Source of the DNA: Pararhodospirillum photometricum DSM 122 | GTDB lineage: Bacteria > Pseudomonadota > Alphaproteobacteria > Rhodospirillales > Rhodospirillaceae | Reading direction: 5' to 3' | DNA: 16,063 bases | Assembly (NCBI RefSeq): GCF_000284415.1 | Contig: NC_017059.1 | Location: 2,756,398 to 2,772,460 of the forward strand | Shown here: one piece after another, positions 12,426 through 13,382 of the stretch | How positions within the stretch are numbered: the stretch's first letter is position 1 | How the letters are laid out: every line of letters begins with the position of its first letter | Position numbers and translations under genes: made by a program | The notes under the pieces: model-generated | Seen by the model: the letters and a program-made list of their open reading frames with translations, nothing else | The model's database searches: none | Told to the model about the DNA's origin: nothing

Positions 12426-13133
12426 ATGCGCCTCTCTGACGCCTTCCTCACGTGGCGCGACCGCGTGTTGTCCTCCCCCGGCTTTCAGCGCTGGGCGGCT
12501 TCCTTCCCCCTGACCCGCCCCTTGGCCCGCTCCCAGGAGCGCCGGCTGTTCGATCTGGTGGCGGGCTTTGTCCACTCCCAGGTGTTGAGCGCCTGTGTCC
12601 AGCTTGACCTCTTCTCCCGCCTGACCCAGCCCCAGACCCCCGACGCCCTGGCCCAAGCCCTGACCTTGCCGCCCGACGCCTTGACCCGTCTGTTGGACGC
12701 GGCGATCGCCTTGGGTCTGTTGGAGACGCGCGCCGAGGGGCGGGTCGGCCTGGGGATGCTGGGGGCGGCCCTGCTGGGCAATCCCGGGGCCGTGGCCATG
12801 ATCGAGCATCACGCCTTGCTCTATCGCGATCTTGCCGATCCGGTGGCCCTGCTGCGCGGCCCGCCGCCGGGAGGGACCGCGTTGGCGCGCTACTGGGCTT
12901 ATGGCACCCAGGAGGCCGGGGAGGTGGCCGCCTATTCCACCTTGATGGCGGCCTCCAACAGTCTGGTCAGCGCCGATATTCTCGATGCGTGGCCCTTGGC
13001 CGGCACGCGGCGCCTGCTCGATATCGGGGGCGGGGAGGGGGTGTTCTTGGAGGCGGCCCTGCGCCGCGCCCCGGCCCTGGAGGGGATGTTGTTTGATCTG
13101 CCCGCCGTGGCCGCGCGCGCCGAGGAAACTTGA
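12426..13133 (+). CDS. crtF: Hydroxycarotenoid O-methyltransferase, 3'-truncated
   Basis: N-terminal part of CrtF, the SAM-dependent methyltransferase that methylates the 1-hydroxyl group of acyclic carotenoids (spheroidene and spirilloxanthin series). The start follows GGGAGGG. Visible parts are the dimerisation/winged-helix region with SQVLSACVQLDLFSRL (51-66) and SAM motif I LLDIGGGEG (197-205). The frame stops after 235 codons, whereas CrtF proteins are about 380 residues. The catalytic C-terminal third is missing because near codon 233 the DNA changes into 23S rRNA sequence; the last codons and the TGA belong to the rRNA. In relatives crtF is followed by bchC and bchXYZ; none of these is here. 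As written the product could not be an active enzyme. Confidence 0.88.
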   Translation: MRLSDAFLTWRDRVLSSPGFQRWAASFPLTRPLARSQERRLFDLVAGFVHSQVLSACVQLDLFSRLTQPQTPDALAQALTLPPDALTRLLDAAIALGLLETRAEGRVGLGMLGAALLGNPGAVAMIEHHALLYRDLADPVALLRGPPPGGTALARYWAYGTQEAGEVAAYSTLMAASNSLVSADILDAWPLAGTRRLLDIGGGEGVFLEAALRRAPALEGMLFDLPAVAARAEET

Positions 13134-13382
13134 GAGGAGCTGTCCCTAGTACGAGAGGACCGGGATGGACATCCCTCTGGTGTACCAGTTGTCACGCCCG
13201 TGGCATCGCTGGGTAGCTAAGGATGGACAGGATAACCGCTGAAAGCATCTAAGCGGGAAGCCTCCCTCGAAACCAGGTTTCCCTATCAGGACCGTGGTAG
13301 ACCACCACGTTGATAGGCCGGGTGTGGAAGCGCAGTAATGCGTGAAGCTAACCGGTACTAATCGTCCGATCGGCTTGATAAA
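13124..13382 (+). rRNA. 23S rRNA, 3'-terminal fragment only
   Basis: The last ~260 bases of a 23S rRNA gene. It includes the sarcin-ricin loop AGTACGAGAGGACC (13148-13161) and the conserved 3' stretches AGCATCTAAGCGGGAAGCC, TGATAGGCCGGGTGTGGAAG and GCTAACCGGTACTAAT. By comparison with E. coli 23S the fragment starts near E. coli position 2630; the first ~2630 bases are absent and are replaced by crtF coding sequence. The exact left edge is uncertain by a few bases (13120-13127), since GAAACTTGAG could belong to either side. The right edge is inferred from the E. coli 3' end. Confidence 0.9.

Follow-up and report, generated by a model that had tools for sequence, protein, structure and literature searches.

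The fusion of crtF with the 3′ end of a 23S rRNA gene in Pararhodospirillum photometricum DSM 122 is, as judged from sequence comparisons, very probably a false join of two contigs in a draft genome that is presented as one sequence. The remainder of crtF and the genes expected to follow it are encoded elsewhere in the same sequence, so the fusion almost certainly arose during assembly and has no biological origin. The analysed stretch of DNA (the window, 16,063 nucleotides) corresponds to C1:2756398-2772460, where C1 is the single contig of the assembly (3,876,289 bases). A shotgun sequence of the genome has been published (Duquesne and Sturgis 2012, J Bacteriol 194:2380; cited in PMC7714858). 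The literature search, which covered sources in part, returned no statement on the assembly quality or the carotenoids of the strain.

The junction between crtF and 23S rRNA

The N-terminal part of crtF, about 233 codons long, occupies positions 12426..13125 of the forward strand. Its frame starts with ATG at 12426 and stays open until a TGA at 13131-13133; the crtF-like letters stop at 13125. The 3′ end of a 23S rRNA gene follows at 13123..13369 (+), where it matches model positions 2655-2912 of 2925 of RF02541 with 247.8 bits, far above chance (E 4.5e-78). A complete 5S rRNA (RF00001, 99.8 bits, model 1-120) lies at 13451..13565 (+). Then comes a GC-rich hairpin with a T run at 13602..13637 (+), read by eye, which is the common end of the terminator-type rRNA operons. 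The false join itself was placed by sequence comparison at 13123..13125, where the letters AGG are compatible with both sides. Beyond these three letters no homology is present between crtF on the left and the 23S remnant of about 250 nt on the right. We infer that the crtF part of the window is the end of one assembly contig and that the 23S 3′ end at 13123 is the start of the next.

These coordinates agree with the preliminary description, in which crtF runs to about codon 233 and then gives way to 23S and 5S rRNA. Its estimates of what is missing are correct to within about 10 residues for CrtF (about 145 residues) and to within a few tens of bases for 23S rRNA (about 2630 bases). It also listed bchC and bchXYZ as missing; they are indeed absent from the window, but they are present elsewhere in the assembly (C1 1.806-1.798 Mb).

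The genes on the two sides of the junction were assigned with protein family models. To the left, crtD, coding for 1-hydroxycarotenoid 3,4-desaturase, is located on the reverse strand at 9824..11329 (NF045637, 671.5 bits over 9824-11326, cut-off 580). Between crtD and crtF, an open reading frame for a crtE-like polyprenyl diphosphate synthase is found at 11417..12355 (+). It matches PF00348 with 162.3 bits, its scores with all NCBIfam models are under the curated cut-offs, and its true start may be further in. On the other side, beyond the rRNA end, a gene for a TPR protein (13684..14691, -; PF13424, 42.1 bits) is accompanied by rppH, coding for RNA pyrophosphohydrolase (14688..15176, -; NF001938, 205.8 bits, cut-off 116). 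A short dispersed palindrome-like repeat with a GGGGAGGCGAGCCTCCCC core was noticed at window positions 13630-13690 and elsewhere in C1. At least 38 short matches to this core were recorded among the 40 of 724 candidates scored; several of these represent a single place read on both strands.

The second part of crtF and other cut genes

The whole genome was searched with window positions 13060-13700 as the query; the search also returned rRNA ends and short repeats. It revealed a 33-bp exact repeat, present in the window at 13093..13125 (+) and at C1:1805699-1805731 (-), where the remainder of crtF begins. We read it as an unmerged contig overlap. From this copy, crtF continues in frame to a stop codon, and it is followed by bchC, bchX, bchY, bchZ, pufL and pufM, in this order (C1 1.806-1.798 Mb). 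All six genes scored above the curated cut-offs: bchC 422.2 bits (TIGR01202), bchX 407.6, bchY 676.7, bchZ 784, pufL 432.2 and pufM 529.4. Both the crtF 3′ part and bchC, for which the preliminary description had proposed a genome search, are thus present at C1 1.806 Mb.

The two parts of crtF were compared with the CrtF of P. oryzae (380 residues) separately, not joined. The window part corresponds to residues 10-243 (64.5% identity), and the 1.806-Mb part to residues 233-380 (66.9%). The PF00891 model is divided in the same way, with positions 1-103 matched in the window part and 92-210 in the other. As PF08100 is matched in the window part, the dimerisation and Methyltransf_2 domains are complete only across both parts. 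The name CrtF is based on homology and gene order; no NCBIfam model names CrtF, and the match to TIGR02716 (BchU) is far under the cut-off, for the P. oryzae protein too. The accessible part of PMC10604819 describes the function of CrtF and does not name the species.

A complete crtF reading frame was not found in the assembly, and a query with the N-terminal part matched the window alone. As printed, the assembly would therefore agree with a decayed crtF, in a strain that makes only non-methoxylated carotenoids through the loss of CrtF. We consider this hardly credible at all, since both parts are open, in frame and without internal stops, and at these identities they jointly cover residues 10-380 of the P. 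oryzae protein. Because both parts are encoded and complementary, the proposal that CrtF loss explains a pigmentation based on rhodopin and lycopene has no support, nor has a real fusion between the photosynthesis cluster and an rRNA operon.

The place at 1.806 Mb is itself chimeric. The start of hldE, preceded by lysA (TIGR01048, 454.2 bits), abuts the 33-bp crtF end with 0 bases between them, and hldE is cut there, so that one false join leads to another. The remainder of hldE was located from C1:2718187 onwards (TIGR02198, 366.3 bits, cut-off 345). Its two ends overlap as well: C1:1805732-1805809 and C1:2718188-2718264 share 78 bp at 98.7% identity with one indel, as would be expected for low-quality contig ends. 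The partner to which hldE is fused at 2.718 Mb is a gene for an ABC-transporter ATPase, which presumably resembles modC.

Other cut ends were analysed for the presence of an overlap; their names (phage portal-like, comF-like and transposase-like) are what we take the sequences to be. The portal-like gene cut at the 2.894-Mb rRNA join (C1:2894408) has a 533-bp copy of 99.4% identity at 3.578 Mb, and this copy (C1:3577633-3577782) is open past the cut point. The same observation would follow from a real prophage duplicate. The end cut at the 3.409-Mb join (C1:3409411) is transposase-like and has 10 near-identical copies (99-100%), so it is uninformative on overlap; this repeat is a likely further source of contig breaks. 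For the comF-like end at 0.69 Mb, the genome search returned no overlap partner. The modC-like end at 2.718 Mb had none either, and its other matches were 75-82% identical and ended short of the cut. Consequently, an overlap was not found at every join tested.

Ends of rRNA operons across the contig

At least 13 places with an rRNA end, including the window, were obtained from the 40 of 724 candidates scored. Two of them belong to the rRNA pieces at 24-38 kb. The remaining 11 have distinct downstream flanks; six are of the terminator type, as in the window, and five carry tRNA-Met. All 11 distinct 3′ ends are broken, 10 inside the 23S rRNA gene, at differing points, and one (2.894 Mb) between 23S and 5S. 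The sequence before the cuts includes crtF, portal-like, comF-like and transposase-like DNA and about 110 nt from near the 16S 5′ end. At one join, a piece from near the 16S 5′ end is placed directly onto the 23S 3′ end.

Downstream of each cut, sequence shared with another copy gave way to unshared sequence after 383-981 bases, with a median of 555 (n = 11 ends). Such distances are expected if contigs extend into a repeat by about one read length, presumably that of 454-type reads.

Further rRNA fragments are located near the start of C1. Between 35 and 53 kb, fragments on opposite strands abut at four places, separated by one base or none. In C1:1-60000, pieces of 16S and 23S genes are scattered in disorder over both strands, and several of them lie end to end. 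One full 23S rRNA gene (2,774.6 bits) was detected in C1 among the 12 of 66 candidates scored, and the 16S pieces adjacent to it cover model positions 912-1520 only. The 16S search gave 22 matches, all partial or shorter than the whole gene, the best with 906.5 bits over 1,027 bases (26 of 91 candidates scored); the same search gave no signal in a Caulobacter control or in P. oryzae, and stretches left out or gapped could conceal whole 16S genes, so nothing follows from the failure to see one. Ten of these matches begin at model positions 1-59, five of them below the cut-off. Together with the 3′ ends, of which there are at least 11 distinct ones, these 16S starts suggest that the genome may have about 10-11 rRNA operons. 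This seems many for an alphaproteobacterium.

These broken ends also bear on the possibility that the junction is real. In that case, crtF would have been interrupted by an inversion or translocation that had one end in an rRNA operon and that attached the first part of crtF to the 23S end. The join is clean and lies within a single-contig sequence, and fusion of bacterial replicons across rRNA operons has been described (PMC8729776). The natural fusion of a chromosome and a chromid in that report resembles the present case in that an rRNA operon stands at the junction; here, however, a protein gene meets a 23S fragment, and apart from three letters they share no homology. A real rearrangement would account neither for the 33 bp repeated exactly at the two crtF ends, nor for the direct contact with the cut hldE, nor for the broken joins at all 11 examined operon ends. 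We therefore regard it as very improbable.

When rRNA operons recombine with each other, the products are whole operons and not a protein gene followed by 250 nt of 23S. At the junction in the window, there is neither an intact operon nor rRNA on both sides. The most far-reaching version, in which a real chromosome break split crtF, fused the cluster to an rRNA operon and was one of many breaks at rRNA copies, deserves even less credence.

A false join of contigs at an rRNA repeat, one of the two readings offered by the preliminary description, is the explanation that we prefer. It is borne out by the CrtF C-terminus with bchC-bchX-bchY-bchZ-pufL-pufM elsewhere, by the exact overlap and by the recurrence of broken rRNA ends. 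Against it, the assembly is a single contig rated 100% complete with 0.97% contamination. The features of C1 are those of repeat-induced misassembly, in which rRNA operons are broken and contigs are strung together with no gap marks. There, too, the sequence breaks off inside a repeat with several copies, the ends of the repeat are incomplete, adjoining fragments face opposite ways, and some true partners keep unmerged overlaps. The present case differs from the usual one only in extent, with 11 of 11 distinct rRNA ends affected in a single contig.

According to the proposed course of events, the left contig, with crtD, crtE and the start of crtF, would end inside crtF. The right contig would begin about 250 nt from the 23S end and run through 5S rRNA, the TPR gene and rppH. 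It would start near the 23S end because short reads cannot take an assembly far into a repeat of about 11 copies. In the cell, crtF would continue into bchCXYZ-puf, and the rRNA end would be part of an ordinary rRNA operon. The cause was probably the combination of reads of a few hundred bases with the concatenation of contigs, and C1 is best read as concatenated contigs.

Gene order in relatives and meaning for the genome

P. oryzae has an intact crtF (NZ_BJZO01000011.1). The DNA that follows this gene can be aligned with C1 1.806-1.797 Mb over 8.7 kb at 81.8% identity, with bchC and bchX as the first genes. The P. oryzae contig stops 340 bp before crtF, so the link between crtE and crtF was not confirmed in the genus. 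The search for 23S rRNA in P. oryzae gave one full-length gene, and the contig that carries it has 3,339 bases.

Gene order was then compared at 31 loci, defined as matches of genome contigs to the full P. oryzae CrtF, with genes counted as adjacent when separated by up to 600 bp. bchC lies directly after crtF in 18 of the 31 loci, including P. oryzae, and not directly after it in 13; crtE lies directly before crtF in 18, and both neighbours are present in 16. These counts include two loci that are only 27-28% identical and two whose match is confined to residues 12-124, where they end. The name of the crtE-like frame in the window is taken from this position before crtF. A search of genome contigs with the 235-aa CrtF part returned no relative; the window's own genome or very near ones were perhaps left out of the searched set.

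The order crtE-crtF-bchC-bchX known from photosynthesis gene clusters is the same in P. photometricum, but it is spread over two places and interrupted at the false join. The organism most likely has an intact crtF-bchCXYZ-puf order. The fusion of crtF with 23S rRNA should not be taken as a real feature and would have no biological meaning. Its value is that of a warning: the genome is given as a single contig, yet the gene order and the split genes around such joins are not to be trusted. Anyone concluding that this species has lost crtF or carries a broken hldE would probably be mistaken.
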